NCBI RefSeq assembly: GCF_040796495.1
Contig: NZ_JBFNQN010000012.1
Location: forward strand, 1 to 64,000
Source of the DNA: Kineococcus endophyticus
GTDB taxonomy: Bacteria > Actinomycetota > Actinomycetes > Actinomycetales > Kineococcaceae
Direction of reading: 5' to 3'
DNA length: 64,000 nt
In this document: in pieces, positions 4,122-53,792 of the stretch
How positions within the stretch are numbered: position 1 is the first letter of the stretch
Layout of the letters: each line of letters starts with the position of its first letter
The notes under the pieces: generated by a model
Databases searched by the model: none
What the model was told of the DNA's origin: nothing
Seen by the model: the letters and a program-made list of their open reading frames with translations, nothing else
Program-made: the position numbers and the translations under genes

Positions 4122-4611
4122 AGCCCCGGTGGGACCCGGCGAAACCCAGCCGTTCGTAGAACCGGTGGGCGTCGGTGCGGGCGTTGTCGGACGTCAGCTG
4201 GACGAGCGAGGAACCCGTCGCGGGGGCGGCGACGTCGGTGACCCAGCGCATGAGCGCCGTGCCGATCCCACCCGACCGCAGGGTGCTGCGCACCCGCACC
4301 GCCTCGACGAGCAGCCGCGCCGAACCACGCCGCGCCATGCCGGGGATCCGGGTGAGCTGCAGGGTTCCGACCACGTCCTCCCCCACGACGGCCACGAGGA
4401 GGTCGTTGGAGGGGTCGGCGAGGATCTCCAGCAGCGCCGCGCGGTAGAGGGGTTCGTCCGCCTCGGACGCTCGGTCACCGCGGGCGGCGCTCACGGGATC
4501 GTCGGCGAGCAACCCCACCACCGCGTGCAGGTCGTTCTCGTCGGCGTGGCGCAGCGAGACCTCCCCGCCCCGGACCGGCAGGACGACCGGCAGCGTGAGC
4601 ACGGCGATCAC
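4084..4611 (-). CDS. GNAT-family N-acetyltransferase
   Basis: A 175-aa cytosolic acyl-CoA-dependent acetyltransferase of unknown substrate. The acetyl-CoA pyrophosphate loop appears as VRVRSTLRSGGIGTALMRW, followed by AHRFYERLGF, the typical GNAT motif B. GTG 4611 overlaps the stop of the upstream acetyltransferase gene (GTGA), so the two are translationally coupled. At its 3' end it overlaps the convergent regulator gene tail-to-tail by 38 bp, which is unusual in this window. Confidence 0.85.
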   Translation of the reverse strand: MIAVLTLPVVLPVRGGEVSLRHADENDLHAVVGLLADDPVSAARGDRASEADEPLYRAALLEILADPSNDLLVAVVGEDVVGTLQLTRIPGMARRGSARLLVEAVRVRSTLRSGGIGTALMRWVTDVAAPATGSSLVQLTSDNARTDAHRFYERLGFAGSHRGFKYAVPSRPTSG

Positions 4612-5126
4612 CGGACCACCTCCGGTGCCTCGCGGTCGAGCCGGTACGTCACCTGGTGCAGGCCCTGGCCGTCGACGTGGGTTCCCGTGCGGTGCGCACC
4701 GAGCCGCTCCACGGCCCGCTGGGACCGCACGTTGTCGGCGTGCACGGTGAACACCACGCTCGGCAGAAGGGCGAACGCGTGGTCCAGCATGAGCCGCTTC
4801 ACCTCTCCGTTCCACCGCCCGCCCCAGCGGGAGCGGGCCAGGAACGTCCAGCCGATCTCCACTGCGTCCAGCCCGCGCAGCACGTACCGCGACGTCCCGA
4901 ACACCTTCCCGTCCGCCCGGTCCTCCGCGACCAGCGCACCGCCGGAGGCGAGCGCCTCCTCGAACCAGGCGCGGAACCCAGGTTCCTCGGTGCGGTCCTT
5001 CGCCGGGTGCTGCTCCCACAGCAACGGGTCGGCGGCGATGCGGCGCAACGGCTCCGCGTCGTCCGCACGCAGCGGCCGCAGCAGGACGAGGTCGCTCGCG
5101 AGCACCGGTTGCCGGTCGAAGGCCAT
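4608..5126 (-). CDS. RimJ/RimL-type GNAT acetyltransferase
   Basis: A 172-aa acetyltransferase. The start (DLVLLRPLRADDAEPLRRIA), EIGWTFLARSRWGGRWNGEVK and VHADNVRSQRAVERLGAHR are hallmarks of the RimJ/RimL subgroup, which acetylates protein N-termini or small amines. It is the first gene of a two-gene unit with a second, different GNAT. A TAGCGT box six bases before ATG and the lack of a Shine-Dalgarno sequence suggest a leaderless transcript. The substrate cannot be inferred. Confidence 0.85.
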   Translation of the reverse strand: MAFDRQPVLASDLVLLRPLRADDAEPLRRIAADPLLWEQHPAKDRTEEPGFRAWFEEALASGGALVAEDRADGKVFGTSRYVLRGLDAVEIGWTFLARSRWGGRWNGEVKRLMLDHAFALLPSVVFTVHADNVRSQRAVERLGAHRTGTHVDGQGLHQVTYRLDREAPEVVR

Positions 5127-5132
5127 GCCCGG

Positions 5133-5138
5133 ACGCTA
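5133..5138 (-). promoter_or_regulatory. Predicted -10 box of a leaderless promoter (RimJ-type GNAT)
   Basis: TAGCGT on the minus strand is separated from ATG 5126 by six bases, placing the transcription start at the start codon. Confidence 0.45.
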
Positions 5139-5167
5139 CCGCGCGCGTCCCCGACCGGCGGTGGACG

Positions 5168-6130
5168 TCAGGCCGGCGACCCGCGCCGCGACGCCACGAA
5201 CCGGGCGAGCTCGTCGAGGTTCGCCACCTCGCAGGTCCGCCGGCCCTCCTCGATGTCGTGGACCATCTCCACGATCCGGTCGAAGACCGGACCCTGGATG
5301 TCCTTGTGCACCTCGTCGACCTCCGTCTTGCGCTTGCGCACCACGAGGTCGCGGTAGATGCCGGAGTGGGTCTTGGCGCTGCGGCGGTTGAACGCGGCCA
5401 ACCGGTCGAAGGACCCGGGCAGGTCGTCCGGCTCGAACCCGTCGAAACCTTCGACCCGGACGGGCGCCTGCGCCAGCACCTCTTCCGACAGCACCGTCAT
5501 GAGTTCGCGGTACTCGGGCCGTTCCAGCGTCTCGGCGATGGGCAGGTCGGACACGGCGCCGGCCCACATCATGGCGCCGTAGACCTCCTTGCCCCACAGG
5601 AACCCGAGGACGTTGTCGGTGGGCTCGGCGTACGGCAGGACCTCGGCCAGTTCCCGCACGCGGGGGGTGATCGCCCCGCCGTCGAGCTCACCGATGCGGA
5701 ACGTCGCCACGTTCCCCTGCAGGACCACCCCGGGGCCCATGAGGTCCGCCCCGACGTTGATGAAGCTGGACAGGACCCGCTCGCGGCCGACGGCCTCGAC
5801 GAGGACGTCGGCGGTGAGGCCGTTCTGCACCGTGAGGACGAACCCGTCGGGGGCGAGCCGGTCGCGCAGCAGCTCCGCGGCCGAGGCGGTGTGCAGGCTC
5901 TTCACCGCGACGACGGCGCGCTCGACGGTGTCCGGCAGGTCCCCGGGCAGGATCGCGGGGATCCGGACGGTGAACTGCGCGACCGGTCCCTCGATCCGCA
6001 GCCCGTCTCGCTGGACGGCCGCGACGTGGTCGGCGTCGGCGTCGACGAGGACGACGTCGTGGCCGGCCCGGAACGCGTGGGCGCCAAGGGTCCCACCGAT
6101 GGCGCCGGCGCCGATGACGAAGAGCGTCAC
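5168..6130 (-). CDS. 2-dehydropantoate 2-reductase-like oxidoreductase (ApbA/PanE family)
   Basis: A 320-aa NADP-dependent reductase. The N-terminal Rossmann motif is FVIGAGAIGGTLGAH, VAVKSLHT and VLTVQNGLTADV match the ApbA core, and the C-terminal domain carries the family's helical half (GKEVYGAMMWAGAVSD, where PanE has a Lys-containing motif). True PanE makes pantoate for coenzyme A, but many paralogues act on other 2-keto acids. As last gene of the peptide-use operon, a role in reducing a 2-keto acid from amino-acid breakdown is more likely than vitamin synthesis. GTG 6130 overlaps the hydrolase stop codon. Confidence 0.8.
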   Translation of the reverse strand: MTLFVIGAGAIGGTLGAHAFRAGHDVVLVDADADHVAAVQRDGLRIEGPVAQFTVRIPAILPGDLPDTVERAVVAVKSLHTASAAELLRDRLAPDGFVLTVQNGLTADVLVEAVGRERVLSSFINVGADLMGPGVVLQGNVATFRIGELDGGAITPRVRELAEVLPYAEPTDNVLGFLWGKEVYGAMMWAGAVSDLPIAETLERPEYRELMTVLSEEVLAQAPVRVEGFDGFEPDDLPGSFDRLAAFNRRSAKTHSGIYRDLVVRKRKTEVDEVHKDIQGPVFDRIVEMVHDIEEGRRTCEVANLDELARFVASRRGSPA

Positions 6131-6978
6131 GCCGGCACCCCCGCCGGCACGGCGCGGTCGACGAACGCGCGCAGCACGCGCTGGAACTCCTCGCGCTCCT
6201 CGTTCTGCGGGGAGTGCCCCGAGTTCTCGAACACCACCAGTTCGGCGTCCGGGACGAGGCGCGCGATCGTCTCGGACGCGCTGACGGGGGTCACCCAGTC
6301 GTGGCGGCCCACCGTCACCAGGACGGGGACGGTGAGGTTCGGCAGGTCGGGTTTGAGGTCGTAGGTGGGGAAGTTCTCCTGGAAGCACGCGTTGTGCGCC
6401 TCGTGCCGGTAGATCCCGGCCTCCACGGCGGCGGTCGACCGGGCCTCGTCGTAGTCGGCGTCGTAGAGGGGGATGAGCTCGCGCCACAGCTCCTTGAGCT
6501 CTTCGTCGCTGCGGACCGTCCCGCCCCAGTAGCGGTTGAAGTGGTCCCAGTCGATCGCCACCCTCGTCTGCCGGCGGGCGTTCTCGAAGGCGAGCTCGAG
6601 GTTCGAGCCGTCCGCGGACGTGTCGCGCAGGACCACGGCGTCCACGTGGTCGGGGTAGCGGACGGCGTACTCCAGCGCGATGAACCCGCCGTAGGAACCC
6701 CCGGCCACCGTGACGCGCTCGGCGCCGGCCCACTGCCGCAGCCCGTCGACGTCCGCGGCCCACTGCTCGTGCGAGAACGGTCCGACCCCCTCGCTGAGCC
6801 CGCAGCCGCGGGCGTCGAACACGATGACCCGGAACCGGTCGGCGAGCGGACCGAAGGTGGACCGGGGTTCGGCGAGCGAGCCGATGCCCCCGCCGCCGTG
6901 GTGGGCGATGAGGACGGGGCCGTCCTCCGGGCCCAGCACCTCGACGTTCAGGCGCGCTCCGTTGATGGTGACGTCCAC
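6127..6978 (-). CDS. Alpha/beta hydrolase, proline-iminopeptidase-like
   Basis: A 283-aa serine hydrolase. The nucleophile elbow GGSYGG places the serine at S95. D227 (GRHDWVTP) and H255 (NSGHSPQNE) complete the triad, and HHGGGG near residue 27 forms the oxyanion segment. The GGSYGG elbow and HGGGG segment are those of prolyl/tricorn-associated aminopeptidases of peptidase family S33. In a peptide-import operon this suggests removal of N-terminal residues from imported peptides, although epoxide or ester hydrolysis cannot be excluded. GTG 6978 follows a strong GAGGAGGA site that lies inside the end of the DUF885 gene. Confidence 0.83.
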   Translation of the reverse strand: MDVTINGARLNVEVLGPEDGPVLIAHHGGGGIGSLAEPRSTFGPLADRFRVIVFDARGCGLSEGVGPFSHEQWAADVDGLRQWAGAERVTVAGGSYGGFIALEYAVRYPDHVDAVVLRDTSADGSNLELAFENARRQTRVAIDWDHFNRYWGGTVRSDEELKELWRELIPLYDADYDEARSTAAVEAGIYRHEAHNACFQENFPTYDLKPDLPNLTVPVLVTVGRHDWVTPVSASETIARLVPDAELVVFENSGHSPQNEEREEFQRVLRAFVDRAVPAGVPA

Positions 6979-16173: not shown

Positions 16174-17736
16174 TCACTGCTTCTTGGAGACGTCCTGGAG
16201 CAGGTACCCGCCCAGCGGCGTCACGTGGAACCCCTGGACCTTGCTCGTCGAGGCGTAGACGTACGGCGAGTAGTAGAGGTAGGCCAGGAACGCGTCCTCG
16301 CTCGTCTTCTGCTGGAGCTGGGTGTAGAGCTCCTGCCGCTTGGCGCTGTCGGTCTCCTTCTGCGCCTGCGCGTTGATGGCGACGACCTCGGGGTTGTCGT
16401 AGGAGGTGAACGCCGACTTCGAACCGCCCTGCGGGTCGACCGCGAAGGACGTCCACTGGTCGGGGTCGGGGATGTCCATCGTCCAGGCGGAGATGGTCAT
16501 GTCGAAGTCCGACGCCAGCCGGGCCTGCTTGTTCGCCGTCGGGTCGAGCTGCTTGATCTCCATCGTGATGCCGATGTCCTTCAGCTCCGACTGCATGATC
16601 TGCGCGACCGAGGCCTGGTTCGGGTTCCCCGAGGCGATGAGCAGCGTCGTGGTGAAACCGTCCGGCTTCGAGGACTGCGCGAGCTCGGCCTTGGCCTTGG
16701 CGACGTCGAAGGTGGCACCGCCGGCGTTCTTGTCGTAGTACGGCGTGCCGGGGGAGAGCAGGGAGTTCGCGGCCTCGCCGTTGCCGAACAGGACGGCCTT
16801 CACGAGGGACTCGCGGTCGATGGCGTAGGAGATCGCGCGGCGGACGTGGACGTCGTCGAACGGGGCGCGGGCCTGGTTGAAGGCGACGTAGTCGATCTGG
16901 GTGGACGGGAACGTCTCGGCCTTGACGTCGCCCGACGCCTTCAAGGACGACAGGCTCGACCAGTCCGGCGTGTCGTCGATGTCGATCTGGCCGCCCTGGA
17001 CCTGCAGCTTGCGGGTGTTCGCGTCGGGGACGACGTTCCACTGCACGCTGGACAGGTACGGCTTGCCCTTCTGCCAGTACTTCTCGTTCGCCGTGAGCTT
17101 GAGGGACTGCCCCTTCTTCCAGCCGTCCCAGACGAAGGGACCGGTACCGACGGGGGCGGTGTAGAACTCCTCGGCCGTCTTGCCGCCGTAACCCTCCGGC
17201 ACGACGCCGTTGGAGAAGATCGAGAGGTCGGCGATGAGGGGCGCCCACGGGTACTTGAGCTTCACGGTGACGGTGTGGTCGTCGGTGGCCGTGACGGTGT
17301 CGATCGCCGCGTTGACGAAACCCCAGCCCTCGGCGCCGGTCTTGGTGTTCTCATCGATCGAGAACTTCACGTCCTTCGCCGTCATCGGCGTGCCGTTGGA
17401 GAACGTGACGTCGGTGCGCAGCGGGATGGTGTAGGTGAGCTGGTCGTCGGAGATGGTGTAGCCGGTGGCCAGCCAGGGTTCGAGCTTCGTGCCGTCCGCG
17501 CTGGCGTGGAACAGGGGCTCCATGATCTGTTCCATCACGCGGATGGAGTTGTTGTCGAACGTCGTCGTCTTGTCCATCGCGATGATGTCCGCCGAGCGCG
17601 CCATCGTCAGGTCGCCACCCTTGGCGGGTGCACCTCCCGCGTCGGCGCCGTCGTCGCTGCCGGCCGCGCCGCACCCACCGAGGGCGAGCGCCATCGTCAG
17701 GGCCAGGGCTCCGACCACTCCGAACCGTGTTCTCAT
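16174..17736 (-). CDS. Peptide-binding lipoprotein of the ABC importer (SBP_bac_5)
   Basis: A 520-aa extracellular solute-binding protein and first gene of the leftward operon. The signal peptide ends in a lipobox (LALGGC) after about 24 residues, followed by a Gly/Asp/Ala linker. KGGDLTMARSADI, the YTIPLRTDVTFSNGTPMTAKDV segment and AFNQARAPFDDVHVRRAISYAIDRE are classic family-5 features for peptide- and nickel-binding proteins. ATG 17736 has a GAGG site six bases upstream; a GTG four codons earlier lacks one. Its neighbours indicate peptides as the ligand. Confidence 0.92.
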   Translation of the reverse strand: MRTRFGVVGALALTMALALGGCGAAGSDDGADAGGAPAKGGDLTMARSADIIAMDKTTTFDNNSIRVMEQIMEPLFHASADGTKLEPWLATGYTISDDQLTYTIPLRTDVTFSNGTPMTAKDVKFSIDENTKTGAEGWGFVNAAIDTVTATDDHTVTVKLKYPWAPLIADLSIFSNGVVPEGYGGKTAEEFYTAPVGTGPFVWDGWKKGQSLKLTANEKYWQKGKPYLSSVQWNVVPDANTRKLQVQGGQIDIDDTPDWSSLSSLKASGDVKAETFPSTQIDYVAFNQARAPFDDVHVRRAISYAIDRESLVKAVLFGNGEAANSLLSPGTPYYDKNAGGATFDVAKAKAELAQSSKPDGFTTTLLIASGNPNQASVAQIMQSELKDIGITMEIKQLDPTANKQARLASDFDMTISAWTMDIPDPDQWTSFAVDPQGGSKSAFTSYDNPEVVAINAQAQKETDSAKRQELYTQLQQKTSEDAFLAYLYYSPYVYASTSKVQGFHVTPLGGYLLQDVSKKQ

Positions 17737-51286: not shown

Positions 51287-51592
51287 GTGCCCCGCCGCAA
51301 GAAGTCCGACGAGACGGACGTCACGAGCGACGCGACTGCCACCGCGGACGCCGGCAAGCGCCGTCGCGGAGGGGTGTCCGACGCCGACCGCGAGGTCAAG
51401 CGCAAGAACCAGCTGACCCCGCGCTGGTGGATCTGGACGATGGTCGGCCTCATGGTCCTCGGCCTGGCCTGGATCGTCGTGTTCTACCTGTCCAGCTCGA
51501 TGCTGCCCGTGCCGGGCTGGGACAACTGGAACCTCGTGGCGGGCTTCGCGCTCGTGCTCGTGGGGTTCGCGATGACGACGCGCTGGCGCTGA
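51287..51592 (+). CDS. crgA: Cell division protein CrgA
   Basis: A 101-aa membrane protein. A charged cytoplasmic N-terminus (DADREVKRKNQLTPRWWIWT) is followed by two helices, VGLMVLGLAWIVVFYLSSS and LVAGFALVLVGFAMTT, joined by MLPVPGWDNWN, the usual CrgA loop. In Streptomyces and mycobacteria CrgA is a septum protein contacting FtsZ, FtsI and FtsQ. The position beside DUF881, sortase, rhomboid and cyclophilin genes matches the conserved actinobacterial cluster. GTG 51287 follows GGAGG. Confidence 0.93.
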   Translation: MPRRKKSDETDVTSDATATADAGKRRRGGVSDADREVKRKNQLTPRWWIWTMVGLMVLGLAWIVVFYLSSSMLPVPGWDNWNLVAGFALVLVGFAMTTRWR

Positions 51593-51708: not shown

Positions 51709-52650
51709 GTGCTGCACGTCGTCTACCGATCCCACGGCGGGGAGAACGCCAAGGGTCGGCCGTCCTGGTACTCGAAGTCGCTGGCGCTGGACTCCTTCCT
51801 GCGCTCGGTGGCGCTGGCGCGTGAGGCCGGCGACGCGATCGACGTGCTCTTCCTCAACGACGGGCCCATCCCGGACGCCCGGCTCGCCCTCATGCGCGCG
51901 CACGGCACCGTGCGCGCCATCACCGGCGGCAGCAACCGGGCGAGCTACCTCGCCGGGCTGAAGCTGGCCGTCCGTTCGGACTGGGCCGCCGACGACGTCG
52001 TCCTGTTCGCCGAGGACGACTACCTGTGGCGCCCGGACGCCCTCCTCTGCCTGGGGCGCGTCGCCGCGCAGGGGCGCGCGGAGTACCTGGCTCCCTACGG
52101 CGTCGGGACGCACGACGACATCGACGGGCGCGTGCCCGTGTGGCGCCGGCCGCGCTCGGGCCGGGGTGAGGAGTCGATCCCGGCCGACGTGGTCCGCTGG
52201 GTGCCGCACCAGAGCACGACGAGCACCTTCGCCGTCCGGCTCGGCGCGCTGCGCCAGGACCACCGCCTGCTGGTGCTGTGCTGCCTGTCCGGCGGCGACT
52301 TCGACCACACGAGCCTGCTCGCGGTGCAGGGCGTCTCCCGCTTCACGCTGCGCGACCTCGTGGCGCACCACCCGGGGTCGTCGTCGAACCCCGCCGTCCG
52401 GCTGGCGCGCGCCGTCTACCTGACGACGTTCCGCAGCGCGGTCGACGTCGCCTCCGTGCGCCGTCCTTCGCGCCGGCGCCGCCTCGCCGCGGCGGACCCG
52501 GCCGTCTGCACGCACATGGAGCAGGGGTGGCTGGCCCCGGCCCCGCACGGGCGCCCGCGGTACTGGGAGGACCTCGCCGCGCAGACCCGCCGCTGGGCGG
52601 ACACGGCGCGCGACCCCGACGGCGACGCGGTCTCCCCAGCCGTCGTCTGA
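51709..52650 (+). CDS. Glycosyltransferase-like (GT-A fold) protein
   Basis: A 313-aa cytosolic protein. The N-terminal MLHVVYRSHGGENAKGRPSW leads into a GT-A-like core: VLFLNDGPIP, then SNRASYLAGLKLAV and VVLFAEDDYLW, where EDD looks like the metal/nucleotide-sugar-binding DxD. The C-terminal third is Arg-rich. No donor or acceptor can be assigned, and the family is unfamiliar to me. GTG 51709 has only a weak ribosome site (GGGGCCGA). It is flanked by crgA and by the DnaA-box cluster. Confidence 0.6.
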   Translation: MLHVVYRSHGGENAKGRPSWYSKSLALDSFLRSVALAREAGDAIDVLFLNDGPIPDARLALMRAHGTVRAITGGSNRASYLAGLKLAVRSDWAADDVVLFAEDDYLWRPDALLCLGRVAAQGRAEYLAPYGVGTHDDIDGRVPVWRRPRSGRGEESIPADVVRWVPHQSTTSTFAVRLGALRQDHRLLVLCCLSGGDFDHTSLLAVQGVSRFTLRDLVAHHPGSSSNPAVRLARAVYLTTFRSAVDVASVRRPSRRRRLAAADPAVCTHMEQGWLAPAPHGRPRYWEDLAAQTRRWADTARDPDGDAVSPAVV

Positions 52651-52711: not shown

Positions 52712-52912
52712 TCATCCACCGGTTGGGGATGGCGTGTGGACAAGGCAGGACATCGTCCACAGGGCTTGTCCACCGACTCGTCCACAAGGTGTGGATGAGT
52801 GTGGGTAAGGGGCCGCTCGATCCACAGCGTGCCCCACACCCGGTGGATGACAGCCGTGGCATTCGCACAGGTGTGCGAATCCCTGTGGACAGTCGCTCGA
52901 GCGGGTGGATCG
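52712..52912. other. Cluster of about ten DnaA-box-like nonamers
   Basis: The gap holds one exact TTGTCCACA (minus strand, 52735-52743) and close variants: TCGTCCACA at 52753 and 52778, TTGTCCACC at 52766, minus-strand TCATCCACA at 52790, CGATCCACA at 52818, minus-strand CTGTCCACA at 52884, and TCATCCACC/CGATCCACC types at 52712, 52842 and 52904. Both orientations are mixed. No dnaA or dnaN adjoins and there is no AT-rich stretch, so a DnaA-binding (titration or regulatory) site is more likely than the origin itself. Confidence 0.7.
52861..52880. repeat. 8-bp inverted repeat inside the DnaA-box cluster
   Basis: ATTCGCAC and GTGCGAAT are perfectly complementary around an AGGT centre. It is the only AT-leaning spot in the gap and could be a binding site for a second protein or a small hairpin. 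Confidence 0.5.
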
Positions 52913-52937: not shown

Positions 52938-53792
52938 TCAGTACAGCGCTGCGGCGTAGCCGAGGCCCGCCAGGACGAACAGAGCCACGGCGGCGGTTCC
53001 GGCCCACTGCACGACCGGGTTCCCCTGCCGACCCCGCGCCATCGCGGTGGCCACGAGGGCCCCCGTGACGAGCCCGCCGAGGTGCCCCTGCCACGAGATG
53101 CCGGCGTAGAAGACGCCGATGAGGAAGTTGATGACGATGAGCACGACGATCTGACCGGTCTGGCGACCCAGGTGCCGGTTCACGACGAAGAGCGCGGCGA
53201 AGAGACCGAAGATGGCCCCGGACGCACCGACTGTCACGGTGCCAGCAGGGGCCAGGAGCAGGGCGCCGACGGCCCCGCCGAGCGCGGACACGAGGTAGAG
53301 GGCTGAGAAGCGGACGCGTCCGAGGAGCGGTTCGAGGTACTGCCCGGTGATCCACAGGGCGTACATGTTGAACAGCAGGTGCAGCACACCGCCGTGCATG
53401 AAGGCGGACGTGACGGGCTGCCACCAGGAGCCTTGACCGAAGGACCCCGGGAACGGGCCGTTGACGAGGGCGACCTGGTAGAAGACGTTCGTCGGCATGA
53501 CCTGCTGGCCCAGGTACATCAGCAGGCACGCGCCGATGAGGACCTTGGTGACGAGGGTGTCGCGGTTGCTCAGCACCCCGCCGAACGTCGTGCGCGCCTG
53601 GCGGACGCCCTTGTTGCCCTCCGCGACGCAGTCCACGCACTGCACCCCGACGGCGGCGGGGCGCTGGCACTGCGGGCAGACGGGCCGCCCGCAGCGTTGG
53701 CAGCGGACCCACGACTCGCGGTCGGGGTGGCGGGGACAGACGGGGACGTCGCTCACGTCGGGTTCAACGCGCGGGACGCCCCCGTCGTTCAC
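52938..53792 (-). CDS. Rhomboid family intramembrane serine protease
   Basis: A 284-aa membrane protein. The cytoplasmic N-terminus has a zinc-finger-like set of Cys and His (C19, H22, C31, C34, C39, C42, C52, C55). The rhomboid core follows, with HGGVLHLLFNM near 133-143, the catalytic serine S191 in GASGAIFG and H237 in WQGHLGG. It cleaves membrane proteins within the bilayer; actinobacterial substrates are largely unknown. It lies just upstream, in the sense of transcription, of the DnaA-box cluster and follows the cyclophilin gene. Confidence 0.92.
   Translation of the reverse strand: MNDGGVPRVEPDVSDVPVCPRHPDRESWVRCQRCGRPVCPQCQRPAAVGVQCVDCVAEGNKGVRQARTTFGGVLSNRDTLVTKVLIGACLLMYLGQQVMPTNVFYQVALVNGPFPGSFGQGSWWQPVTSAFMHGGVLHLLFNMYALWITGQYLEPLLGRVRFSALYLVSALGGAVGALLLAPAGTVTVGASGAIFGLFAALFVVNRHLGRQTGQIVVLIVINFLIGVFYAGISWQGHLGGLVTGALVATAMARGRQGNPVVQWAGTAAVALFVLAGLGYAAALY

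Follow-up and report, generated by a model that had tools for sequence, protein, structure and literature searches.

What might a dense cluster of DnaA boxes be doing outside the replication origin, in a gap behind the division gene crgA? The question is raised by a 64,000-nucleotide stretch of the Kineococcus endophyticus genome (positions 1 to 64,000 of contig NZ_JBFNQN010000012.1, hereafter the window; the contig as a whole is called C12). Between positions 52712 and 52892 this stretch carries, counting both strands, ten nonamers with no more than two mismatches to the DnaA-box pattern TTRTCCACA, of which seven have at most one mismatch and a single one is exact (52735-52743, minus strand, TTGTCCACA); exact TTATCCACA is absent from the cluster. 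A preliminary description of the window had reported such a crowding of boxes in both orientations with one perfect copy among them, and our scan agrees. Judging from sequence comparison, we consider it fairly likely that the array is a place on the chromosome for DnaA assembly, with a tuning effect on DnaA close to oriC, rather than an origin or a promoter. Its elements are the following:

52712 to 52720, plus strand: DnaA-box-like nonamer TCATCCACC, the outermost, 2 mismatches
52735 to 52743, minus strand: DnaA box TTGTCCACA, exact
52750 to 52850, plus strand: core array, the match of sequence model R1 (one strong match per genome in 11/11 genus genomes)
52753 to 52761, plus strand: DnaA box TCGTCCACA, first in the fixed-register array, 1 mismatch
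52766 to 52774, plus strand: DnaA box TTGTCCACC, box A of a 12/12 triad, 1 mismatch
52778 to 52786, plus strand: DnaA box TCGTCCACA, box B of the triad, 1 mismatch
52790 to 52798, minus strand: DnaA box TCATCCACA, box C of the triad, facing box B over 3 bp, 1 mismatch
52800 to 52808, minus strand: DnaA box TTACCCACA, fourth box of an oriC-like module (+12 +12 -10 -), 1 mismatch
52818 to 52826, plus strand: DnaA-box-like nonamer CGATCCACA, 2 mismatches, its TCCACA part invariant in 11/11 genus genomes
52842 to 52850, minus strand: DnaA-box-like nonamer TCATCCACC, 2 mismatches
52862 to 52879, no strand assigned: palindrome TTCGCACANNTGTGCGAA, exact form in 5/11 genus genomes
52884 to 52892, minus strand: DnaA box CTGTCCACA, 1 mismatch

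The box cluster is not a product of chance, because random sequences never surpassed two good boxes, whether counted over 190 bp or over a gap. The maximum was two boxes (at most one mismatch) per 190 bp across 200 first-order Markov sequences of 64 kb each, and again two across 2000 sequences generated to match the gap in composition, versus seven observed. Within the 64 kb the runner-up 200-bp window holds only 2 boxes, and exact TTRTCCACA occurs 13 times in the whole assembly (5.04 Mb, 46 contigs). When 144 kb of the contig were ranked by density the array came first (7 boxes with at most one mismatch, 10 with at most two), followed by oriC (4 and 9) and a site at 143.4 kb (2 and 6). The possibility, raised in the preliminary description, that comparably dense sites would turn up elsewhere was not realized in these 144 kb, nor in a genome-wide scan with model R1 that scored 150 of 5970 candidates. 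Counts of single boxes are uninformative here, the one-mismatch pattern giving at least 333 occurrences versus at least 319 for a reversed control.

A possible absence of the cluster from sister species had also been raised. Our data show instead that the rhomboid protease gene next to the array is found in 11/11 genus genomes, with the array close by in every one of them. Alignment of the array across the genus leaves 46 of 109 columns invariant, and the boxes or box remnants keep a constant register of 13, 12, 12, 10, 18, 12 and 12 (with one extra base in L015). In G005 (L010:621-779) the array keeps this register although it is some 0.7 kb away from rhomboid, a distance not seen in the other ten genomes. 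Model R1, which uses sequence only, returned one strong match per genome (70-93 bits, 11/11), the next best reaching at most 29.4 bits; the strong matches are expected, since these sequences were used to build the model, but their uniqueness is not, within a scan that scored 150 of the 4263-6390 first-look candidates per genome. The array moreover persists while its flanking genes change: a 313-aa open reading frame (ORF) that separates it from crgA in the window adjoins it in part of the genus only, and in L015-L018 the 3' end of crgA comes directly before the array without this ORF. On the 3' side of the core lies the palindrome TTCGCACANNTGTGCGAA, which is exact in five of the 11 genomes (one place each, in the array), imperfect in three and missing from three.

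Outside the genus, model R1 served poorly as a search tool (51/296 genomes, our own included, at E <= 0.001, with mixed weak matches), and because it transferred so poorly to the class we anchored a wider survey on crgA. CrgA (PF06781) was found in 93/98 genomes of the class, and 80 of these 93, spanning 32 families, were surveyed over about 6 kb on each side of crgA, as far as the contigs reach. The densest box window starts between -150 and +300 of the end of the CrgA match in 73/80 genomes, and in 55 of the 62 stretches that have at least 4 kb on both sides. The mean number of boxes with at most one mismatch is 2.44 per genome for the 200 bp that follow crgA and 0.28 for the next 200 bp, and it stays at or below 0.13 in every other 200-bp bin within 4 kb. 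Two or more boxes within 400 bp of crgA are present in 69/80 genomes and 26/32 families, versus 14/1917 background windows. Since the same kind of set sits at the same place in most relatives examined, the crgA-side box set is probably a chromosome-copying control site rather than a chance arrangement. Rhomboid was recognised in 69 of the 80 stretches and is convergent to crgA in all 69, and the distance from crgA to dnaA is below 60 kb in 45/48 genomes with both genes on one contig and a usable distance (48 of 52 genomes, G035, G036, G054 and G087 being left out).

The boxes near crgA also keep fixed distances from one another, with spacing peaks at plus-plus 13 (42 genomes), plus-minus 10 (53) and plus-minus 23 (59). 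The class core accordingly has box B 13 bp after box A and the facing box C another 10 bp on, that is, two tandem boxes and one facing them. Fixed-spacing triads (six spacing variants, at least 22/27 matches) occur near crgA in 55/80 genomes versus 0/1917 background windows; earlier triad scores, taken as the best over 36 spacings in one forced orientation, had overstated the weak cases. On the oriC side of dnaA (26 genomes) other peaks prevail, namely minus-minus 12 (24), plus-plus 9 (12) and plus-minus 12 (11). Beside the triad we found a 16-bp palindrome, ATTACACNNGTGTAAT, that scores at least 11/14 in 42/80 crgA regions versus 1/1933 background windows, and at least 10 in 64/80 versus 19/1933, with its start 15-17 bp ahead of box A in 50 of the latter 64 genomes; it was spotted by eye in the same 80 sequences that were later scored, which favours the crgA count somewhat. 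Among 20 chosen genomes, 6 have the strict form RTYACACNNGTGTRAY, in a single copy that always lies beside crgA, and in 30 dnaA-flanking loci (some of them shortened) the class palindrome was not found beyond a best score of 10/14. We use the labels Mycobacterium-like (f11 g16) and Streptomyces-like (f26 g31) as putative assignments from synteny and size. Five Streptomyces-like genomes (L094, L102, L103, L108 and L116) carry triads of the 12/12 type, or near it, after crgA, and in four of them a palindrome-like GTTGACGCCGRTGTGAC is located other than directly before box A.

A scan with a loose DNA pattern, in which 80 of at least 120 stretches were examined (L193-L272), supplies organism names and no rate. 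Among these 80 loci, 11 carry CrgA, with the match less than 1 kb downstream of crgA in 10 of them (e.g. Pedococcus bigeumensis, Mycetocola saprophilus, a Jatrophihabitans and two Arthrobacter). A DnaA C-terminal domain is present in 33 of the 80 loci, with the match upstream of it in 32; many of these dnaA-upstream matches are outside Actinobacteria, and the names include Selenomonas, Aneurinibacillus, Nocardia and Rhodococcus. Loci with a tandem pair plus facing box upstream of dnaA include L195, L200, L213, L223, L229 and L254.

How does this element relate to known DnaA sites? One such site has been described in Mycobacterium beside Rv0011c, which we take to be crgA. It resembles the array in lying downstream of crgA and close to the origin, and in its cluster of DnaA-box-like sequences; like it, the array follows crgA and precedes the next conserved gene. 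The Mycobacterium site contains a small palindrome, and the array has one too, though with another sequence and on the opposite side of the core compared with most of the class. The Mycobacterium-like genomes differ in their fewer and weaker boxes and in a next gene that is codirectional, whereas it is convergent in the window. In M. tuberculosis five DnaA-binding regions have been mapped, the Rv0010c-Rv0011c gap among them, with five homologues in a second Mycobacterium species, and DnaA binds this gap in vitro and the homologous M. smegmatis region in vivo, the methods being IDAP-seq, electrophoretic mobility shift assays and chromatin immunoprecipitation sequencing (PMC7738170). According to the same source, mutants of the site form longer cells, as dnaA variants do, a phenotype likened by the authors to that of hypomorphs; with one exception, all recurrent M. 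tuberculosis changes hit a small palindrome located 65 bp upstream of Rv0010c; expression of Rv0010c and Rv0011c is unaltered in dnaA mutants; and DnaA binding in other species offers no obvious counterpart of the site (PMC7738170). In the Mycobacterium-like genome G013 the next codirectional ORF (143 aa) has the palindrome 52-68 bp ahead of it, and we infer that this is the M. tuberculosis palindrome before Rv0010c. HigA2 is reported in PMC11205783 to bind sites of the ATCAC(N)6GTGAT type and to need 8 µM for the Rv0010c site; the strict palindrome of G013 and G076 contains this motif, which is not the usual class form.

In E. coli K-12 our scan of the bioD-uvrB and rppH-ygdT gaps found box starts in the order plus, minus 14 on and minus 12 on, and from map positions in PMC5742627 we take these sets to be the DnaA-reactivating sequences DARS1 and DARS2, whose cores are described there as sharing their spacing, with box I opposite to boxes II and III. 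Read on the other strand, the actinobacterial triad likewise runs plus, minus, minus, at 10/13 in most of the class and 12/12 in the window, and boxes C, B and A of the array, taken on the minus strand, reproduce the opposition of box I to II and III. The likeness to DARS1 and DARS2 comprises a three-box core with one box facing two in tandem, a fixed spacing common to two sites, and a non-coding position; DARS2 has extra protein sites beside its core. The DARS elements act by freeing DnaA of ADP. E. coli datA is similarly an off-origin cluster of DnaA boxes, has a partner-protein site and lowers DnaA activity, through a hydrolysis of the ATP on DnaA that depends on IHF.

On the reading that we prefer, DnaA would form a defined oligomer on the core of two tandem boxes plus one facing box, and a partner protein would bind the palindrome and time or shape this oligomer, in the manner of IHF and Fis at datA and DARS2 of E. 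coli, so that the complex would alter the supply of initiation-competent DnaA for the nearby oriC. We know of no dedicated palindrome-binding protein. As to the direction of the effect, we lean slightly and only tentatively towards a DARS-like stimulating role, because mutations of the mycobacterial site mimic dnaA alleles likened to loss of function; a lowering of DnaA by titration or inactivation we regard as only slightly less probable, each of the two taken alone being less likely than not. The origin-proximal DnaA sink proposed in the preliminary description is well supported in its first half, as an origin-proximal DnaA-binding locus (genus register in 11/11, class crgA site, binding in Mycobacterium), while the topology and the mutant phenotype point at least equally to stimulation. 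Although speculative, it is possible that most Actinomycetes possess one dedicated DnaA-control element at the crgA-rhomboid junction, in which a single-copy palindrome read by an actinobacterial protein abuts a three-box DARS-like core; this would be the class counterpart of the IHF/Fis-gated datA and DARS with another partner, would link the activity of DnaA to the neighbourhood of a division gene, and, in the window's own genus, would have been remade into an oriC-core copy that has a new palindrome. The novelty appears to lie in a class-wide element of fixed geometry at this junction and in its palindrome, whose strict form is found once in each genome that has it; among the open-licence titles and abstract beginnings searched, none reports an element of DnaA boxes at crgA across the class. 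Relative to E. coli, the adjustment of DnaA in Actinomycetes is poorly known, and an element of fixed geometry at a predictable place makes it a directly testable question. It also gives a wider setting to the published, unexplained Mycobacterium DnaA site beside crgA, and it points to a putative palindrome-reading protein.

Several observations weigh against this reading. The core of the array is the oriC core of the genus, which fits a decoy at least as well, and the genus palindrome, besides its uneven occurrence, has another sequence than the class palindrome and sits on the opposite side of the core. The DARS core spacing of 14 and 12 is not found in the array, and three boxes can be arranged in four patterns, of which the topology held in common with DARS is one. 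A similar box pattern upstream of dnaA in other phyla means that the arrangement is not unique to crgA. The initiation rate is unchanged in the mycobacterial dnaA variants, leaving their loss of function uncertain (PMC7738170). In eleven of the 80 class genomes there are fewer than two good boxes at a distance of up to 400 bp from crgA (G011, G012, G013, G023, G034, G037, G057, G092, G097, G101 and G105), although G012 has a box cluster 1.6 kb further on, still before rhomboid, and G057 a weaker one likewise. The reversed 13/10 triad also reaches a score of 22 in 14/79 genomes versus 1/1903 background windows, because the facing boxes are nearly symmetric. Finally, a predicted rhomboid ORF overlaps the element in G022, G045, G063 and G079, as does the next codirectional ORF in some other genomes.

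The array occupies a 287-bp gap between the 3' ends of two convergent genes, past both stop codons, a placement that had been missed in the preliminary description. Its neighbours are listed below, and a cyclophilin-type isomerase gene lies on the far side of rhomboid.

51287 to 51592, plus strand: crgA (PF06781), 1.1 kb before the array
51709 to 52650, plus strand: 313-aa ORF between crgA and the array, no Pfam or NCBIfam match
52938 to 53792, minus strand: rhomboid protease gene (PF01694, family match), converging on the array

The left-hand neighbour had been called glycosyltransferase-like, for which we find no support in either Pfam or NCBIfam (0 matches each). It had further been said that neither dnaA nor dnaN is nearby. 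This is correct within the window, but on the same contig dnaA (C-terminal domain, minus strand) is found at C12:89986 with a box-rich gap toward dnaN (identified by eye), which places the array about 37 kb from oriC. The four-box core of the array (+12 +12 -10 -) equals a module in this oriC, at C12:89735-89777. Ten secondary model loci away from the array were checked in the genus, and the eight of them (in eight genomes) that have a DnaA C-terminal domain all carry the four-box module (31-33/36 matches), the two without DnaA not doing so (20/36); this check covers 8 of the 11 genus genomes, with G002, G006 and G007 left out.

What should be made of this kinship with oriC, a common module with spacings of 12, 12 and 10? 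A second or relocated replication origin might be supposed, given that the boxes stand in origin register and that both their number and the core module are those of oriC. At 45% AT, the 40-mer of the gap that is richest in AT (52769-52808) moreover exceeds the 99th percentile of the window (42.5%) and is about as AT-rich as the best of the oriC gap (47.5%), a measure that hardly separates the two and leaves their AT content not clearly different. This 40-mer lies within the boxes, and there is no separate AT-rich stretch outside them in the array gap; the earlier statement that an AT-rich unwinding region is lacking is accurate in the latter sense only. The array, however, is not beside dnaA and dnaN, the genome already has a box-rich gap between those genes, and the class element is only about 50 bp long, so that we consider an origin extremely improbable. 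The same kinship would suit pure titration, in which the array, as a decoy of the oriC core, takes up DnaA shortly after it has itself been replicated and so reduces the free pool, the nucleotide state of DnaA staying as it is. Ten boxes with the module of oriC, at an origin-proximal position that is doubled early in the cycle, are consistent with such a sink. Smulczyk-Krawczyszyn et al. in 2006 reportedly described DnaA-box clusters H69, H24 and D78 near oriC in Streptomyces coelicolor, and H69 may be the same place as the crgA element. DnaA-box clusters near oriC of this actinobacterium, alike to the array in that position, are cited as repressing untimely initiation in PMC4585315 and PMC5742627. 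Nevertheless, the strict class-wide spacing exceeds what a sink needs, the class core spacing (13/10) mostly differs from that of oriC, and the mycobacterial site mutants resemble weaker rather than stronger DnaA. Titration is the lowering branch of the preferred reading, and we hold it to be unlikely to the degree already given there, the two judgements overlapping.

Explanations that turn on the neighbouring genes fare worse. The preliminary description had suggested DnaA control of rhomboid-ppiA or of the left-hand gene, and a promoter or regulatory region acting on these or on crgA might draw on the M. tuberculosis site being upstream of Rv0010c (PMC7738170) and on a next ORF codirectional with crgA in 20/80 genomes by a crude heuristic. 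The array is nonetheless past both stop codons and not upstream of a gene start, the gap has 0 sigma-70-like sites, rhomboid is convergent wherever it was recognised, the array outlasts its neighbours, and the unaltered expression of Rv0010c and Rv0011c in dnaA mutants speaks in the same sense; such control is disfavoured and appears quite improbable. Still less probable is a bidirectional terminator or structured RNA between the convergent genes, with the facing boxes as hairpin arms: the predicted fold of the gap is stronger than in 200 shuffles (z -3.9), but in the central hairpin 0/9 pairs changed on both sides among 11 sequences and 500/500 shuffles were equal or better, the gap has neither a terminator-like site nor an Rfam match at E <= 1, and the tandem boxes would be left unexplained. 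Improbable, if less so than the promoter, is a chromosome landmark in which a partner protein, acting in segregation or in organising the nucleoid close to the origin, has its primary site in the palindrome, with DnaA recruited there. The single-copy occurrence of the strict palindromes in the genomes having them (6/20 in the class set, 5/11 in the genus), the nearly fixed distance at which the class palindrome abuts box A, the recurrent M. tuberculosis mutations and the position of the G013 palindrome before the next ORF would all fit. Against it, the palindrome scores below 11 in 38/80 genomes, fewer genomes have the palindrome than have the boxes, and HigA2 is reported to need the concentration quoted above for the Rv0010c site.

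Our searches also revealed other groups of boxes in the genome. On the far side of oriC, C12:143480-143540 holds a small second cluster of DnaA-box-like sequences just past a DUF4235 gene, which itself follows Phage_holin_3_6 and DUF3618 genes. The longest dnaA ORF carries three boxes at its 5' end (C12:91508-91539), which places them on the true start or immediately ahead of it; they are likely a dnaA autoregulatory site. On contig C10, three tandem boxes, two of them exact, lie at 16516-16561 between divergent genes whose products resemble, by eye, an FHA/FtsK-type ATPase and a CpaF-type ATPase. On contig C1, two exact boxes (TTATCCACA and TTGTCCACA) are found on one strand at 372892-372977, 77 bp apart.
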